From NCBI RefSeq assembly GCF_000002425.4, contig NC_037259.1:4555481-4619480 (forward strand): 64,000 nucleotides of DNA, read 5' to 3'. This document shows, one piece after another, positions 8,603-57,319 of this stretch (positions are counted from its first letter, which is position 1; the number at the start of each line of letters is the position of its first letter). Under the pieces are notes generated by a model, which was not told the DNA's origin, did no database searches, and saw only the letters and a program-made list of their open reading frames with translations. Source of the stretch: Physcomitrium patens. Lineage: Eukaryota; Streptophyta; Bryopsida; Funariales; Funariaceae. A program made the translations under genes and the position numbers.

Positions 8603-9131
8603 TGTCACAGACATATATATTTACTATAATATTTATCTATATGATTAAATAGAAGTAAATAAAAGTAGATTTATTTCATAATATTTTCTAGAGAAGCTTC
8701 CTAAAAGCTTCATAGATATTTTTTTGACTTTACATGTGTTTATAGTTGATTGGTTGGATAGAAACTTGATCAATAAATTAAGCATGTATTGGTAGCTTAT
8801 AAAAAAAGTTAAGTATATGGCATACATATAAAAAACTTGCCTTGCAAGTTAAGATACAAGTCTTATAAAGTCAACATGTTTTGGAGGTCCTATAGAATAT
8901 TGCCAAGTAGATCCTAATTAACAGTATATATAGAGATAAGAGTGAAGTCTTCTTCATTCTTGTCAATGCTTTTTTATTCTTTAGTCTTATTTCAAGACTT
9001 TTTAGTCTTCTTGACTTTGACAATAGCCATTCTAATTTAATACCATATCATCTTAGAGTGACTTTTTAGTTCTTTTGAATCATACAAGAGTGTATTAATG
9101 ATTTCTTTTTTCAAGATTCATGTCTTTAATA
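8603..9131 (+). repeat. E 5' LTR
   Basis: It matches 14463-14990 along its length. Near its centre are a TATATATAG motif and a GTGAAG/CTTCA-type inverted repeat at the expected transcription start. The leader begins two bases after its end with TTGACAAGAAT, complementary to 8956-8966. Confidence 0.8.
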
Positions 9132-9599
9132 ATTTGACAAGAATCATAATTTATTATATTTATCTTATTTTAAAAATGAGTGAATTACTCCACTTCTATT
9201 GTTGTATTTTGAAGGTTGTGGACTATCCACTTTTAAATAAATAATCTTATTTTTTAATATTGATTTTTTCTTAAAAAAGATAGATTATCCTTCTTTGTGA
9301 AAATTTTCATTTGATATTAGAGGTTATAGATTACCTTCCTCTTATTTAACTTTTGAATTTGTTTGAGTTGTCTAGAGAAATAAAAAAGTATGAATGTTAC
9401 TCTGAGAAAAAAATAAGAATAGATTTGAAACTATTGCAGAGCTTCACAAGCTTGTCAATACTCTTAGAATAAAAATTTCATTTATTTTTAATGTAAATCA
9501 TGGAGGTACTATTCCTATGGCTCTAAAAAAATTTAGAATCTACATCAAGAAGTTGTACAATTGAAAGAAGTAAGTAGATTGACCTTACAACCAAATCTA

Positions 9600-14995: not shown

Positions 14996-15999
14996 TCATC
15001 AAGATCTTTTTTTCTTTGTCCAACCTGCTTATTATTTTGTTATACTTTTATTTCTTGGCCCACAAAAGACTTCAAAAAAATGCCTTATTAGATTCATGAG
15101 TATCTATTTGCTTTTTAGATAAAGATTTTTTTAAACTTCATAAAATTTTTCTAATACACAAGTTAAAACCTATCAAAAAGTCATCAATAATAATGCCTTT
15201 ATTTCTTTAAAAAAAAATTATAAAGATGGATAAGAAAAAATTATCCTTTGTCATTTATGCAATTCCATCTTGTGAAGGAGCAAGTTTATTAGTAGCTATT
15301 TAAAAACACTATAAAAAATACTAATATATTTTCAAAGCATCAATCATATGATAGTACCATTGATCTTTAGGAAAAGACATAACCACTATTTGGCCCAATC
15401 TACAACCTATCACAAAACAAGCTTTTGGCATTGAAGGATTACTCCAATAAAAAACTTACAAAGAACTTTAATCAATATTCCAAATCTCCAACAAGTATAC
15501 CAATACTTTTTGTGAAAAAAAAAAAGATAGATCTTTGTAAATGTATATTGATTATAGCCACCTCAATAAAATAATGGTAAAAATTGTTATCCATTATCAT
15601 TGATATCAAGGCTTTTAAAGCAATTTGGTAAATCAAAGATCTACATTAAAATAAATCTCTTTAGAACATATAATTTGGTGTGGATTAAAGAAGGAGATAA
15701 ATGGAAGATAATATTTTGAATAAAATATGAATATTTTGAATATAATGTCATACCTATTGGATTGAAAAATGCTCTAAAAATATTCCAATATTATATAAAT
15801 GATGTTCTTTAAGAATTCTTGAATAAGTTTATTATTTCATATCTTGATCTTTTCTAAGATTCTTGAAGAATATAAAAAATATGTATAATTAGTCTTGTAA
15901 AAATCACAAGATATAAGATTATATACCAAATTTAAAAAATATGTATTCTATTAACTAAAAGTAGAATTTTTTAAATATATTATATCCAATGAATACTTT
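14996..15999 (+). pseudogene. A0 pol part 1: protease and RT N-terminal half
   Basis: Homology to A pol resumes directly after E: protease near 15080-15180 (LLDS followed by a stop), then RT from about 15390 ([17 protein letters not shown]). The last codons are the RT block before the GLKMDPKK motif, cut at the ACTTT target of element A. Continuation is at 21967. Confidence 0.65.
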
Positions 16000-16019
16000 T
16001 GTTAGGGACATAGTTCTTA

Positions 16020-16110
16020 GAACCTTCTAGAGACAAGTTTCTAGAACCTTCTAGAAGCAAGTTTCTAGAACCTTCTAGAAGCAAGTTTCTAGAACCTTCT
16101 AGAAGCTTCC
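16020..16110 (+). promoter_or_regulatory. Tandem heat-shock-element array in the LTR promoter
   Basis: Perfect nGAAnnTTCnnGAAn modules recur: AGAACCTTCTAGAAGC occurs three times with flanking TTTCTAGAA, giving runs of alternating GAA/TTC units at two-base spacing. This is the known binding consensus of heat-shock transcription factors. The array ends about 40 bp upstream of the TATA box, and a further GAAGCTTCC lies at 16132-16140. Heat induction is an inference from motif and position. Confidence 0.7.
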
Positions 16111-16150
16111 TAGTTGATAGAAGTTGCTTGAGAAGCTTCCTAAATAGGAG

Positions 16151-16193
16151 TATATATTGGAATCGAAGCTGAAGAGTTCTTCAGTCTCGACAA
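16151..16193 (+). promoter_or_regulatory. TATA box, predicted start and inverted repeat of A
   Basis: TATATATT starts at 16151. At 32 bases from it, the A of TTCAGTC (16183) fits a plant pyrimidine-purine start. The start lies in an inverted repeat whose arms (TCGAAGCTGAAG, 16163-16174, and CTTCAGTCTCGA, 16179-16190) pair except for two decayed positions. In the 3' LTR the left arm reads TTGAGGCTGAAG. Confidence 0.55.
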
Positions 16194-16322
16194 CACATTT
16201 CTTGGAGCTCTAGCTTACCTCTCTGGTATTGTTCTTGTATTCATCTGATTAATCTAGTTCTTGTCAGTTCTTCTTGAACTTCTTGTTAGATCTTGAGCCT
16301 GTATTTCTATGTTCGTGACAGC

Positions 16323-16357
16323 TTGTCGAGACTTCACTCACCTCAGATATCAGAGCT
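16323..16357 (+). promoter_or_regulatory. A leader: 5'-end complement and primer-binding site
   Basis: TTGTCGAGACT (16323-16333) starts two bases after the LTR and is the exact complement of 16183-16193, the predicted first 11 nt of the RNA. TATCAGAGCT (16348-16357) matches the initiator-methionine tRNA type of primer-binding site (TGGTATCAGAGC), but the usual TGG is replaced by AGA and the site is 27 bases from the LTR instead of adjacent. Confidence 0.6.
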
Positions 16358-16600
16358 AGTTTCTTACTGGTTAGAGTGCGGATTACCCCTCTGCTTGGAA
16401 GTGTACTAGCATTTTAGAGGTTGCGGATTACCCTCCTCTAAATTGATACTTCTTTTCTTATAATATTGGAGTCTTATTCTTCTTGGAGAGAGTGGATTAT
16501 CCCTTTTCTTGAAGCTTTTAAGGCATTTTAGAGGTTGTGGAGTACCCTCCTCTAAACCAATATTGTCTTCTTGTAGAGTCATTTCTGTCCTTCTCTTAGA

Positions 16601-21640: not shown

Positions 21641-21961
21641 TGTTAGGGACATAGTCCTTAGAACCTTCTAGAGACAAATTTTTAGAACCTTCTAAAGACA
21701 AGTTTCTAGAACCTTCTAGAAGCAAGTCTCTGGAATCTTCTAGAAGCTTCCTAGTTGATAGAAGTTGCTTGAGAAGCTTCCTAAATAGGAGTATATATTG
21801 GAATTGAGGCTGAAGAGTTCTTCAGTCTCGACAACACATCTCTTGGAGCTCTAGCTCACCTCTCTGGTGTTGTTCTTGTATTCATCTGATTAATCTAGTT
21901 CTTGCCAATTCTTCTTGAACTTCTTGATAGATCTCGAGCCTGTATTTCTTTGTCCGTGACA
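21641..21961 (+). repeat. A 3' LTR
   Basis: The 321-bp partner of 16000-16320. Its heat-shock-type array is more eroded: TTCTAGAACCTTCTAGAAGC remains intact once, with other units reading TTTTTAGAACC or TTCTAAAGAC. TATATATTGG and the start-site inverted repeat are retained. Confidence 0.92.
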
Positions 21962-21966
21962 ACTTT

Positions 21967-26850: not shown

Positions 26851-27397
26851 TGTTATGGACATACATATTTACTCTAATAATTATCTAGATAATAAGAATA
26901 AGTAGAAGTAAGTCAAAGTAGATAAATATGATAATATCTTGTGGAAAGCTTCTTAAAAGCTTCATAGATGCTGCTTTGTCTTTATACATATCTATAGGTG
27001 ATTGATAGGTTGAAAACTTGGCCAACAAGGATGCCACGTCTCAACATGTTGATCACTTGTAGTGTAAGTTGGACATATGGCACATACCTAGGAAACTTGC
27101 CTTACAAATTAGACATGTATCTTACAAGTTGGATGTGTATTAGTGGTTCTATAGCATGTCGCCACATAGTCTTTAGTTAAGTAATATATATATAGAGGCA
27201 AAAGTGAGGCCTTCCTCATTCTTGTCAATTCTTTTCTTGCTTTTAGTTTAGTTTCAAGATTCTTATATTTTTATAGTCTTTGGCAATAGCCATTCCAATT
27301 CTTCCTTGAATATACATACTTTCTTCTATTTTATCACTTATTTTTTTATACAAATTCTACGAGTTTATGTATCTTTTTTTAATTTGTGTCCTTGATA
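26851..27397 (+). repeat. D 5' LTR
   Basis: It starts TGTTATGGACATAC and ends CCTTGATA, matching 31496-32038. It contains TATATATATAG and a GTGAGGCCTTCCTCA inverted repeat at the expected start site, partly eroded. Confidence 0.82.
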
Positions 27398-27532
27398 GAT
27401 TCACAAGAGTACACATACAATATCAAAGCTTTGTCTTTTCTTCATTAAGAATGGATTATTCCTTTCTCTTAATAAGATGTAAGTATATTAGAAGTTTTAG
27501 ATTACTTTCTTCTAAAGTGATATTATTTTTAG

Positions 27533-35241: not shown

Positions 35242-35792
35242 TGTATCAAGGACAAGAATTTGATAAAAACAAATAAAAAAGTGAAACTTTTTTCAAAGAA
35301 AGATGAAAAATTAGAAATAACTAAATATGTATATTAAAAAAGAAACCTGGAATGATTATTGTCAAAAGACAAGAAAACTAGAAATCCTTGAAACTAGATT
35401 ATAAACAAGAAAAGAGTTGACAAAAGTGAAGAAGGCTTCACTCTTGCCTCTATATATACTATCTACCTAGGAGTTATGTGGCAACGTTCTATAGGACCTC
35501 CAAAAATGTATTGACTTTGCACAACACGTATCTTAACTTCCAAGGCAAATTTTCTATGTCGATACCACATAATTAGCTTGTTTTGTAAGCTATCAATATA
35601 TATGGCATGTGGTCAACTTCTTGACCAAGTTTCTAACCTATCAATCAAGTATAAACACATGTAAAATCAGTAACATCTATGAAGCTTCTAAGAAGCTTTT
35701 CTAAAAGATATTTTGAAATTAATCTACTTTTACCTAGTTCTATCTATTCATATCTCTTAGATAAAAATTACAATAAATATATGTCCATGACA
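35242..35792 (-). repeat. 3' LTR of the truncated minus-strand element
   Basis: The minus-strand reading starts TGTCATGGACATAT and ends TTGATACA. The inverted repeat near 35425-35455 is of the B type (GAAGGCTTCACTCTT), next to TATATATAC. Confidence 0.8.
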
Positions 35793-37890: not shown

Positions 37891-38440
37891 TGTCACAAAC
37901 ATATATTTACTGTAATTGTTATCTACGTGATATGAATAGGTAAAAGTAAGTAAAATTAGATTAATTTCATAATATCTTTTAGAGAAGCTTCCTAAAAGCT
38001 TCATAGATGTTGTTGTAACTTTACATGTGTTTATGCTTGATTGATAGATTAGAAACTTGGTCAACAAGTTAACCATATGCCACACATATTGGTAGCATGT
38101 GGAACAAGCTAACTATGTGGCACCCACATAGAAAACTTACCTTGTAAGTTAAAATACGTCTTGTATAAAGTCAATACATTTTTGGAGGTCCTATAGAACG
38201 TCGCTACGTAGCTCCTAAGTAGATAGTATATATAGAGGCAAGAATAAAGCCTTCTTCACTCTTATCAACTCTTTTCTTACTTATAGTCTAGTTTCAAGGG
38301 TCTCTAGTTTTCTTATCTTTTGGCAATAGTCATTCTAATTTCTTTCTTAATATATATATTTAGTTATTTCTATTTTGACATCTTTCCTTGAGAAAAGTCT
38401 TACTTATTTATTTATTTTTATGAAGTTCTTATCTTTGATA
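37891..38440 (+). repeat. B0 5' LTR
   Basis: About 550 bp starting TGTCACAAACATAT and ending CTTTGATA, parallel to the LTRs of B with many transitions. It includes TATATATAGAGG and the B-type start-site repeat in eroded form. Confidence 0.78.
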
Positions 38441-38653
38441 GATTAACAAGAGTACATTTATAATATCAAAGCTTTGTCTAATCTTGATTAAGAATAGATT
38501 ATTCCTTTCTCTTCATAAGACATAAGCTTATTAGAAGTTATGGATTACCTTCTTCTAAACTGATATTGTTCTTAGTAGTTTTTTTATTCTCAAGTCCTCT
38601 CTTTTATTTTTTTTGAGCAATATTAGACATCTTCTCTTTTTTAAAGTGTTATC

Positions 38654-38778
38654 ATGGCAAAACTTGCTAAATTAAAGAGTGTAATGACACAAATGCAAGA
38701 GCAATTGAGAGAGTTAATGCTTACAATGCATCAACTCAATTTACCACTACAAGGAGCAACAAGATTGGTAGGAAGTAA
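38654..38778 (+). pseudogene. B0 gag, N-terminal piece
   Basis: It reads MAKLAKLKSVMTQMQEQLRE and MHQLNLPLQGATRLVGS, parallel to B gag, and stops at the AGTAA target of element B. The continuation is at 45181. Confidence 0.75.
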
Positions 38779-39339
38779 TGTCACGGCCATAATCATGTAA
38801 GCTAATAATTACATATAGAAATAGATAGAAATAAGTAAAAGTAGGTAAAAGTAAGTTAATTCTATAATATTTAATATGGAAGCTTCCTAGAAACTTTTTA
38901 GATGCTCCTTTGACTTCATAGGTGTCTTTAATTGACTTTATGGATTAGAAACGTGGTCAACAAGTTGGCCATGTGCCACACATGTTGTTAGCTTGAAGAT
39001 CAAGCTAACTATGTGGCCCTCACGTAGAAAAACTTGCCTTATAAGTCAAGGCATGTGCCCTACAAAGTCAACACATATTGGAGGTCCTATAGAATGTTGC
39101 CACGTAGCCCCTAGTTAGATAGTATATATAAAGACAAGAGTGAAGGCTTCTTCACTCTTGTCAACTCCTTTCTTGCTTCCAGTCTAGTTTCAAGGGTCTC
39201 TAGTTTTCTTGTCTTTTGTCAATAGCCATTCCTGTTTCTCTTTCAATATACATACTTGTTTATTTATATTTTGTTACCTTTCTTTGAGTGAAGGCTCACT
39301 TGTCTGAATTATTTTTTCATCGAGTTCTTGTCCTTGACA
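38779..39339 (+). repeat. B 5' LTR
   Basis: Features in order: GGAAGCTTCCTAGAAAC (one GAAGCTTC head-to-head heat-shock-type pair), GTTGCCACGTAGCCCC (an ACGT core), TATATATA at 39123 and a perfect inverted repeat at 39133-39162. It ends CCTTGACA. Confidence 0.93.
39123..39164 (+). promoter_or_regulatory. TATA box, predicted start and perfect inverted repeat of B
   Basis: TATATATA starts at 39123. GACAAGAGTGAAG (39133-39145) and CTTCACTCTTGTC (39150-39162) are exact complements with a four-base loop GCTT. The A of TTCACTC (39154), 31 bases from the TATA start, is the likely first transcribed base, so the palindrome spans the start site. Confidence 0.6.
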
Positions 39340-39341
39340 GA

Positions 39342-39372
39342 TTGACAAGAGTACACCTACAATATCAGAGCT
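39342..39372 (+). promoter_or_regulatory. B leader: 5'-end complement and primer-binding site
   Basis: TTGACAAGAGT (39342-39352) begins two bases after the LTR and is the exact complement of 39154-39164. TATCAGAGCT (39363-39372) matches the initiator-Met tRNA primer-site core, with CAA in place of TGG before it and 23 bases from the LTR. Confidence 0.6.
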
Positions 39373-39551
39373 TTGTCTAATCTTAATTAAGAGTGGATTC
39401 TCTCTTTTTCTTGATAAGATATAAGCGTATTAGAAGTTGCGGATTACCCTCTTCTAAACTGATATTGTCTTTAGCATTTTCTTTGTCCGCAAGTCCTCTC
39501 TTCTATTTGTCTTGAGCGATATTAGACATCTTCTCTCTTCTAAATGTTATC

Positions 39552-44614: not shown

Positions 44615-45175
44615 TGTCACGGCCATAATCATGTAAGCTAATAATTATATATAGAAATAGGTAGAAGTAAGTAAAAGTAGATAAAAATAAGTTAATTCTA
44701 TAGTATTTAATATAGAAGCTTCCTAAAAACTTTCTAGACGCTCCTTTGACTTCATAGGTGTCTTTAATTGACTTTTTGGATTAGAAACGTAGTCAACAAG
44801 TTGGCCATGTGCCACACATGTTATTAGCTTGAAGATCAAGCTAACTATATGGCCTACACGTAGAAAAATTTGCCTTGTAAGTCAAGGCATGTGCCCTACA
44901 AAGTCAACACATATTGGAGCTCCTATAGAATGTCGCCACGTAGCCCCTAGTTAGATAGTATATATAGAGACAAGAGTGAAGGCTTCTTCACTCTTGTCAA
45001 GTCCTTTCTTGCTTCCAATCTAGTTTCAAGGGTCTCTAATTTTCTTGTCTTTTGGCAATAGCCATTCCAGTTTCTCTTTCAATATACATACTTATTTATT
45101 TATATTTTGTTACCTTTCTTTGAATGAAGGCTCACTTGTCTGAATTATTTTTTTATCGAGTTCTTGTCCTTGACA
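44615..45175 (+). repeat. B 3' LTR
   Basis: The 561-bp partner of 38779-39339. The inverted repeat at 44969-44998 is kept perfectly. Confidence 0.93.
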
Positions 45176-45180
45176 AGTAA

Positions 45181-46712
45181 AGATATAGAAATGATTGGAG
45201 TTACTTCAACATCTGCACCAAATCATGTCCCTTCTCCTATGGTAGAACATCCTTCTAGTATTAGAGAACTAAGAATTATCCTACTCGAGAAGTTTGATGG
45301 CACCAGATCAAAATTTAGAGGATTTATCAATCAAGTACAACTTGTGATTGAACTTCAACTCCAAAGCTATCCAACTCCAGGAATACAAATTAGATTCATT
45401 AGTACACTTCTTTGAGATTGAGCATTATCATGGTTTTTATCTTTTTTTGAATGACGAGATTTAATATTAAATAATTTAGAGGCTTTTTTGGTGGAGTTTC
45501 GATCCATGTATGGAAAACATGATGCAATTTGTGTTGCAACCAATAAGATCTGTATTTTGCAACAAGGCAATCGATCAGTAACGTTGTATGCTTCATAATT
45601 TAGACAACTTGTAACTAATATCAAGTGAGATGATGCTGCACTTGTTAGCCAATTTTTCTACGGATTACAATATGAGGTAAAAAAATTAATGCTCAACTTA
45701 CTTGATCCTCAAACAATGAATCAAGTAATTGACTTTGCTGTGAAGTGCAATAATTGTCTTTTTGAATTTCAATTTGAGAACCGTACAAGTAGACCTCAAG
45801 GTTAATATAATTCAATAGCAATACCAATATCTCTTTAATACATACATTTGGAAGTAGAAGATATGCAAATTGATGTGGTACATTTCAAACCTCTTATTGA
45901 GAAAAAAAAGACTGGTCGTCGTTAAGAAAGATTGTGCTTATATTGTCGAGAACCTAAGCATATTACTCAACATTGCTCAAAGAAGTGACACAACCAAAAA
46001 ATGAAGCATATGGCTATCAAAAAAGATAGTGTGTTAAAAATCGAATTTGTCTAGCTACAATATGGACCGTGTGGCTAGAACCTTGTACAACACCTAATGA
46101 AGGTCCTATTCTCTCCTCAGAACCTTCTCTTTGTTTTATGTTAAATATTATTTTAAGACCTAAACATCAAAAAGCCTTTGATTTATTAGATTCAAGAGCC
46201 TCAGTATGTTTCTTAAATGAAGAATTTTTAAAAGACATAGCATATTTTTAGTAAAGAAAACTAAACCTGTTCATATAAATATCATAGATGGTCGTCCATA
46301 GTCTTCAAGAGATGTTATTCATGAAATCCTTCCTATAGAAGTAGCAACTAATGGTCATAATAGCTTTATAGTATTTAAAATCATTAGATCTCTCTCTAAT
46401 CCAATAATTTTAGATTTATCATCGTTAGAAAAATATAATCCTAAAATAGATTGGACTTCTCGTAGTCTTGATTTTTCTGAAAGTATAACTAAGAGCGTAG
46501 TTTATCAAATAGAAAGTCATAAGTCTAATACAATTAAACATGTATTTATAGATGCAAGAGCTTTCTTACATGCTACAAAAAAAGGATCACCTTATATTAT
46601 TTATGTCGCACCTTTTTCTACTAGTGGAAAGACTTCAAGTGGCATTTCAAGCTAATATCAAGATTTTTAAGATGTATTTGAGAAGAAGAATGTAGATAGT
46701 CTTCTGGAACAA
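45181..46712 (+). pseudogene. B0 gag remainder and protease
   Basis: Gag resumes in register after B (KDIEMIGVTSTSAPNH; B has EDIKMVAAASTSVPNH). A degenerate zinc knuckle lies near 45935-45975. The gag stop motif reads CTACAATATGG, so TAG has become TAT here. The protease core near 46180 reads LLDSRASVCFLNEEF. Homology ends at about 46712. Confidence 0.68.
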
Positions 46713-56618: not shown

Positions 56619-56897
56619 TCTAAGAGAAGGATAGGAATGACTCTACAAGAAGACAATATTGGTTTAGATGAGGGTACTCTGCAACCTCTAAAATGCCTTA
56701 AAAGCTTCAAAAAAAGGGATAATCCACTCTCTCCAAGAAAAATAAGACTCCAATATGGTAACAAAAGAAGTATCAGTTTAGAGGAGGGTAATCCGCAACC
56801 TCTAAAGTGCTAATACACTTCCAAAGAGAGGGGTAATCCACACTCTAACAAAGAAGAAACTAGCTCTGATATCTGAGGTGAGTGAAGTCTCGACAAA

Positions 56898-57319
56898 GTG
56901 TCACGGATACAGAATACAGACTTGATATCTACCAAGAAGTTCAAGAAGAACTGGCAAGAACTAGATTAATCAGATGAATACAAGAACAACACCAGAGAGG
57001 TGAGCTAGAGCTCCAAGAGATGTGTTGTCAAGACTGAAGAACTCTTTAGCCTCGATCCCAATATATACTCCTATTTAGGAAGCTTCTCAAGCAACTTCTA
57101 TCAACTATGAAGCTTCTAGAAGGTTCCAGAGACTTGCTTCTAGAAGGTTCTAGAAACTTATCTCTAGAAGGTTCTAAGGACTATGTCCCTAACATCTTCT
57201 ACCAACTAAGAAGCTTCTAGAAGGTTCCAAAGACTTGCTTCTAGAAGGTTCTAGAAGCTTGTCTCTAAAAGGTTCTAGAAACTTGTCTCTAGAAGGTTCT
57301 AAGGACTATGTCCCTAACA
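56898..57319 (-). repeat. C 5' LTR with duplicated HSE-rich end
   Basis: 422 bp, with the same internal second copy of the LTR start (about 57200-57180) as in the 3' LTR, so the duplication predates insertion. It is followed on the minus strand by a two-base spacer and the leader element TTGTCGAGACT (56895-56885), complementary with one G-U pair to 57035-57025. Confidence 0.9.

Follow-up and report, generated by a model that had tools for sequence, protein, structure and literature searches.

A probable self-primer and its binding site in chromodomain Ty3/gypsy retrotransposons of the moss Physcomitrium patens

Results and Discussion

A matching pair of 11-mers in element A

Within a stretch of 64,000 nucleotides from the genome of Physcomitrium patens, referred to here as the window (positions 1-64000), we are confident in reading positions 16323-16333 as the putative primer-binding site (PBS) of a self-primed chromodomain Ty3/gypsy retrotransposon, element A, and positions 16183-16193 as its primer. 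As judged by sequence comparison, the two 11-mers are very probably a self-primer and its landing site, with the element's own RNA replacing a tRNA as primer. An earlier note on this DNA had described the pair as a leader element linked to the predicted 5' end of the RNA, and both points are upheld, the primer being located 31 to 33 nt after the start of the TATA box. We part from the note over the roles that it suggested, namely packaging, control of primer binding or strand transfer by an element 'next to the primer site', for we take the right partner itself as the PBS, with the left one as its primer.

The coding pieces of the elements match models for protease, reverse transcriptase, RNase H, integrase, SH3_Tf2-1 and chromodomain, and the chromodomain (PF00385) follows the integrase in A and B. 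For the integrases of B and A2, the relatives named by organism among the best 120 of 855 and of 7096 matches come from frogs, a lizard, Mucoromycota and a rust, and the placement in a lineage rests on the nearest named matches among those listed.

Pairing in the elements of the window

Six elements were found in the window with a 5' LTR and a leader, termed A, A2, B, C, D and E; A2, located on the minus strand, was absent from the list in the earlier note. The 5' LTR of A (16000..16320, plus strand) starts with TGTTAGGG, ends with GTGACA and thus has TG...CA ends. Its 3' LTR (21641..21961, plus strand) abuts with the GTGACA end on the target site duplication (TSD) ACTTT, present at 15995-15999 and 21962-21966, and no PBS-like sequence was found after this 3' LTR. 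The self-primer of A, AGTCTCGACAA (16183..16193, plus strand), is predicted to form the first 11 nt of the RNA and begins 32 nt from the TATA start, and the self-PBS TTGTCGAGACT (16323..16333, plus strand) begins 2 nt past the LTR end. In B the 5' LTR occupies 38779..39339 on the plus strand and the 3' LTR 44615-45175, with the TSD AGTAA at 38774-38778 and 45176-45180; the self-primer is ACTCTTGTCAA (39154..39164, plus strand, TATA start + 31), and the self-PBS TTGACAAGAGT (39342..39352, plus strand) again starts 2 nt past the LTR end. Both pairs are complementary at 11 of 11 Watson-Crick positions, exactly as described before in coordinates and sequence.

Element A2, which matches A at about 91% over element pieces, has its 5' LTR at 56899..57319 (minus strand) and the TSD ATACT on both sides. 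Its self-primer AGTCTTGACAA (57025..57035, minus strand) and self-PBS TTGTCGAGACT (56886..56896, minus strand) form ten Watson-Crick pairs and one G-U pair. The remaining elements lie on the plus strand. In C (5' LTR 26851-27397) the primer at 27218..27228 and the PBS at 27400..27410 share nine Watson-Crick pairs and the single G-U pair reported earlier, but also a C-C mismatch that had been overlooked. Element D (5' LTR 37891-38440; primer 38258..38268, PBS 38443..38453) keeps 9/11 Watson-Crick matches, the same count as before, and E (5' LTR 8603-9131; primer 8956..8966, PBS 9134..9144) shows 11/11, an exact match that does include, as had been observed, a change missing from its 3' LTR. The rule that the right partner begins 2 nt past the LTR was confirmed in all six elements. 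The proposed distance of 31-32 nt from the TATA start applies to A and A2 (32) as well as B and D (31), but not to C (33); in E the primer is 31 nt from a TATA start read by eye, the scoring script having chosen another TATA.

Dinucleotide shuffling of the LTR produced an exact match, at whatever position, in 2 of 20000 shuffles for A and in 8 of 20000 for B. Over the first 120 nt of the leader, the 11-mer at offset +2 is the sole exact match in A, B and E; A2, C and D have no exact 11-mer in this range. In A and B the primer is exactly 11 nt long, with the flanking bases unpaired by reading.

Some further features of the window were recorded. Element B is inserted in the gag region of D and splits it into 37891-38778 and 45176-46711 (TSD AGTAA), and in the LTR of A2 (56899-57319) about the first 125 nt are duplicated internally, with two copies of TGTTAGGGACATAG. 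Old elements have a GC content of ~25% and young ones of ~40%, and element copies differ mainly by changes of the C-to-T type, indicating strong decay after insertion. Positions 1067-1590 hold a probable gene, with an intron, for a small secreted Cys-rich protein, with only two homologues found among 5.8 billion proteins.

Compensated differences between families

The pairs of A and B differ at three positions, and each difference is present on both sides, as had been noted; the cross matches of the R region of A with the PBS of B, and the reverse, consequently fall to 8/11. The covariation claimed earlier holds between families, but not within family A. Among 40 fetched places of this family in the home genome (470,438,890 bp in 101 contigs), the window copy included, 19 pair at 11/11, seven through ten matches and a G-U pair and 11 with one mismatch, while two are worse and one was not scorable, and no compensated change of primer and PBS was seen by eye. 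What is found within families is decay and not covariation; the covariation sits between families.

A further 200 kb from 20 other stretches of the genome yielded eight leader matches, one of which (L081) is not a leader. The other seven, scored at the homologous place, match at 11, 11, 11, 10, 10, 8 and 8 of 11 positions, the two cases of 8/11 being L088, scored by eye, and an E-like copy in L083. The chromodomain gypsy family RLG1 is described in the available part of PMC7466625 as dominating the P. patens genome and as transcribed in protonema.

Relatives in contigs of other assemblies

An integrase-alignment scan of bacterial and archaeal assemblies led to 22 loci, which were taken as eukaryotic contaminants, and three scans of viral contigs returned no relatives. 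Eleven of the 22 loci (L001-L009, L021, L022) originate from a single cyanobacterial (Trichormus) bin of a reference genome collection, which thus holds LTR retrotransposon contigs that are evidently eukaryotic. The fern Azolla is the host of Trichormus azollae, so the loci of the bin may be fern DNA.

All 22 loci were scanned for CA followed by 2 nt and a motif of 10 or 11 nt whose complement occurs 60-700 nt farther upstream. Five passed with a rightly placed TATA box, namely L003, L004 and L006 (AAGGCGAACAA), L009 (AAGGTGAACAA) and L005 (CTCTTGATCAA); note that these were found via the match itself, so that their number is no hit rate. Matches without a TATA box, in these five and in other loci, look like chance, and L001, with about 7/11 by reading, appears to be a miss. 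TGACA precedes the 2-nt spacer in 5/5 loci, the scan having required CA only. The primer measures 11 nt in L003, L004, L006 and L009 and 12 nt in L005, and a comparison of L009 with L003 reveals one differing primer position that is compensated both in the PBS and in the upstream arm discussed below. The relatives from other contigs have unlike 11-mers, in the same geometry as the moss elements.

LTR ends and a tRNA-type site in the leader

The 3' end of an LTR is set by the start point of minus-strand synthesis, and a spacing of 2 nt past the LTR end is the usual amount that integrase removes. The 3' LTRs of A, A2 and B stop at the same CA, directly next to an exact 5-bp TSD, and since the 11-mer lies 2 nt beyond this CA, we infer that minus-strand synthesis started at the self-PBS. 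A TGG... PBS directly beside the LTR end, as expected for a tRNA-primed element, was not found in these elements or in the moss element L077 introduced below.

Two candidate functions for the site were considered and discarded. Priming by a tRNA at 16323-16333 was rejected on the grounds that there is no TGG and that the site varies between families in step with R, and packaging or strand transfer was rejected as the main function, as the site sets the LTR end.

In the course of events that we propose, the RNA of element A would begin at A16183, and its first 11 nt would fold back onto the PBS. The resulting duplex would be nicked after nucleotide 11, as is done by RNase H in Tf1, and the 11-mer would then prime minus-strand DNA, through the two spacer nucleotides into U5 and then R. 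Integrase would finally trim the two extra nucleotides to generate the CA end.

Behind the self-PBS, a second candidate site was found. It is complete in L077, whose leader contains, in this order, the self-PBS, 10 nt and the 12-mer TGGTATCAGAGC, which we take to be complementary to the initiator tRNA-Met. The L077 element has the TSD ATTTG on both sides, and its LTR ends at the self-PBS boundary. The family comprises 40 scored places at 98-100%, L077 itself among them, from 2800 first-look candidates, and 15/15 fetched copies keep both the 12-mer and the self-PBS, with a primer match of 11 in 13 copies and of 10 in two. These copies are near-identical, young and alike by descent, so that the 12-mer shows presence rather than constraint. 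The core of this site, TATCAGAGC, lies in the leaders of A (16348..16356, plus strand) and B (39363..39371, plus strand), and TATCAGAGCT is invariant in 11/11 leaders, a picked set from which C, D, E and the majority of family-A copies are absent. In addition, a related element in the same Trichormus bin, L021, has TGGTATCAGAGC at about 2301-2312, shortly before an ATG.

It might be argued from this that the downstream site is the real PBS and that the duplex of R and leader regulates packaging or access of the primer. The persistence of the 12-mer in the fetched L077-family copies, the invariance of TATCAGAGCT in the picked leaders, the presence of TGGTATCAGAGC in a relative from another contig and its appearance in print as a plant PBS with tRNA complementarity (PMC7215508 and PMC3977881, in excerpt) all speak in its favor. 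Priming there would, however, lengthen the LTR by ~20-24 nt, and this is contradicted by A, A2, B and L077, in which the 3' LTR reaches no farther than the self-PBS boundary and the TSDs are exact. Moreover, A and B lack a TGG to pair with the CCA end of a tRNA, TATCAGAGC is exact in just 22 of 39 family-A copies and is replaced by TATCAAAGC in C and D, and no exact site of this type was found on the given strand of L003-L006 and L009. We consider this explanation very unlikely. LTRs extended as far as the tRNA-type site were not observed either: TATCA or TATTA came after every one of the 49 self-PBS sites that had 34 nt or more of sequence behind them in the fetched genome pieces, where overlapping fetches were counted repeatedly.

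L077 shares TGGTATCAGAGC with the tRNA-Met-primed plant chromoviruses, but differs from them in that the 12-mer starts 24 nt past the LTR end instead of adjoining it and did not set this end. The TATCAG of the leader may be conserved for a reason other than tRNA binding, since it can also pair with a CTGATA that follows a leader stem-loop. With priming assigned to the self-PBS, the second site is either a surviving former tRNA site, a site where a tRNA still binds, or a motif for a leader stem.

An arm upstream of the predicted start

The first 8-9 nt of the primer also pair with an arm in U3, just upstream of the predicted start. Two mutually exclusive structures had been proposed before, and this stands, as U3 arm and PBS both pair with the primer. 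In A the arm (16163..16175, plus strand) faces 16178-16190 with 12/13 pairs including one G-U in the 5' LTR, and with 13/13 including two G-U in the 3' LTR; in B (39133..39145, plus strand) it forms 13/13 pairs with 39150-39162. The LTRs of A2, C, D and E, in a tally made without shuffles and excluding the 3' LTR 35244-35792, show 10 to 13 of 13 pairs, G-U included. The arm was assessed with 400 dinucleotide shuffles of the region per sequence, a picked copy lacking the anchor (L060) being excluded. An equal stem arose in 0/400 shuffles for the 3' LTR of A, both LTRs of B, L077, L003, L004, L006 and three family-A copies, in 1/400 for another family-A copy, in 3/400 for L009 and in 25/400 for the decayed 5' LTR of A. 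L005 has no arm at the primer (69/400 shuffles with an equal stem). The stems of the moss differ in sequence from those of the other contigs, with changes on both sides, and primer, PBS and arm accordingly form a three-way set.

The resemblance of U3 arm and PBS invites the objection that the pair arose by chance or as a by-product of a palindrome at the start site, with a PBS-like 11-mer that copies the arm and plays no part in priming. The resemblance follows from the fact that both pair with the primer. The shuffle controls for A and B given above contradict chance, as do the constant +2 offset and the length of about 11 nt in spite of unlike 11-mers, and L005 has a primer/PBS pair without any U3 arm. 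We regard this objection as having next to no probability.

For RNA extended upstream by 43 nt of U3 (37 nt for L004), folding favored the arm over the PBS in six of nine sequences and disfavored it in L004 and L005, with a near tie in L009. Under DNA parameters, seven of nine had the arm ahead, A gave a tie, and L005 showed no arm. Lying upstream of the start, the arm can enter the RNA solely in front of the 3' R; it would also occur in read-through RNA and in plus-strand strong-stop DNA, where R is preceded by U3. We suggest that the arm locks the spare copy of the primer, and it could serve again in plus-strand strong-stop DNA, the 3' end of which is complementary to its own R. If it is a lock, the arm would explain how pairing with the second primer copy is avoided.

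The palindrome of U3 and R could instead be a promoter element acting as DNA, such as an initiator or the site of a dimeric factor. In line with this, the palindrome of A and B covers the predicted start and has its first base 10-12 nt downstream of the TATA start. Its sequence nevertheless differs between the families of the moss and of other contigs while the pairing persists, whereas a site bound by protein would rather be expected to keep its sequence. We give this alternative real weight, if somewhat short of an even chance. The more comprehensive scheme is offered tentatively, and we think it rather unlikely to be correct as a whole: primer, PBS and arm would constitute a three-way code in which the arm locks the second primer copy, such that only RNA with the exact start primes and the strong-stop end is kept from folding on itself, and the tRNA-type PBS of L077 would be the record of a switch from tRNA to self-priming or a site for a helper tRNA.

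Folding of the leader

For RNA reaching from the predicted start to the PBS, the primer/PBS duplex formed with a mean pair probability of 0.86-0.98 in 9/9 folded sequences, a chosen set that leaves out C, D and E. With 30 and 60 nt of extra leader, this value decreased from 0.92 to 0.31 and 0.04 in B and went down to about 0.7 in A2. The duplex of D is weak throughout, at 0.45 or less.

Farther downstream, the leaders contain stem-loops with the near-constant loop GTTGCGGATTACCCT, at 16412..16443 (plus strand) and 16527-16557 in A, at about 39430-39460 in B and at about 5690-5722 in L077. The stem is repeated in A and differs on both sides in B, with AGAGG/CCTCT versus AGAAG/CTTCT. These stem-loops are a candidate packaging signal.

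Relation to known self-primed elements

Tf1 primes itself with the first 11 bases of its own RNA (PMC7175516, in excerpt), and the self-priming of Tj1 is the same in outline, according to the accessible part of PMC4600332. As in the Tf1/Sushi group (Tf1 of S. pombe, Tj1 of S. japonicus and the vertebrate sushi elements), the moss elements are of the Ty3/gypsy type and have a PBS that adjoins the LTR and is complementary to the predicted 5' end of their own RNA. The likeness to Tf1, as far as it is described in the excerpt of PMC7175516, includes the 2-nt spacer, LTR ends with target duplications, the length of 11 nt and the lack of TGG. The moss elements differ in their host and in that their priming is deduced from the sequence. 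Comparable as well is the Tcn1 lineage of plant chromoviruses, which the moss elements resemble as chromodomain Ty3/gypsy elements of a moss with predicted self-priming, and to which they may belong by their nearest matches. In the part of Neumann et al. 2019 available (PMC6317226), self-priming is predicted for the majority of Tcn1-lineage elements in mosses and club-mosses, as well as for copia TAR elements; for SM-Tcn1 of Selaginella, the excerpt of PMC2864245 reports evidence for neither tRNA priming nor self-priming.

As self-priming has already been predicted for the Tcn1 lineage of mosses and club-mosses, the core of our finding is known biology. Two details may be new, the U3 arm pairing with the primer and the tRNA-type PBS behind the self-PBS; the excerpts of the Tf1/Sushi literature mention neither such an arm nor a tandem tRNA-type PBS.

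The long-range pairing of R and leader becomes a specific, testable step of reverse transcription, with a start site predicted to the base. Self-priming gains comparative support in a moss, including the family of L077 with its abundant first-look candidate places. Annotators who mistake the tRNA-type site for the PBS would place the LTR end ~20-24 nt off. Finally, the tandem of self-PBS and tRNA-type PBS bears on the origin of self-priming in plants, by horizontal transfer, which is favored in the part of PMC6317226 available, or by a switch of primer in place.
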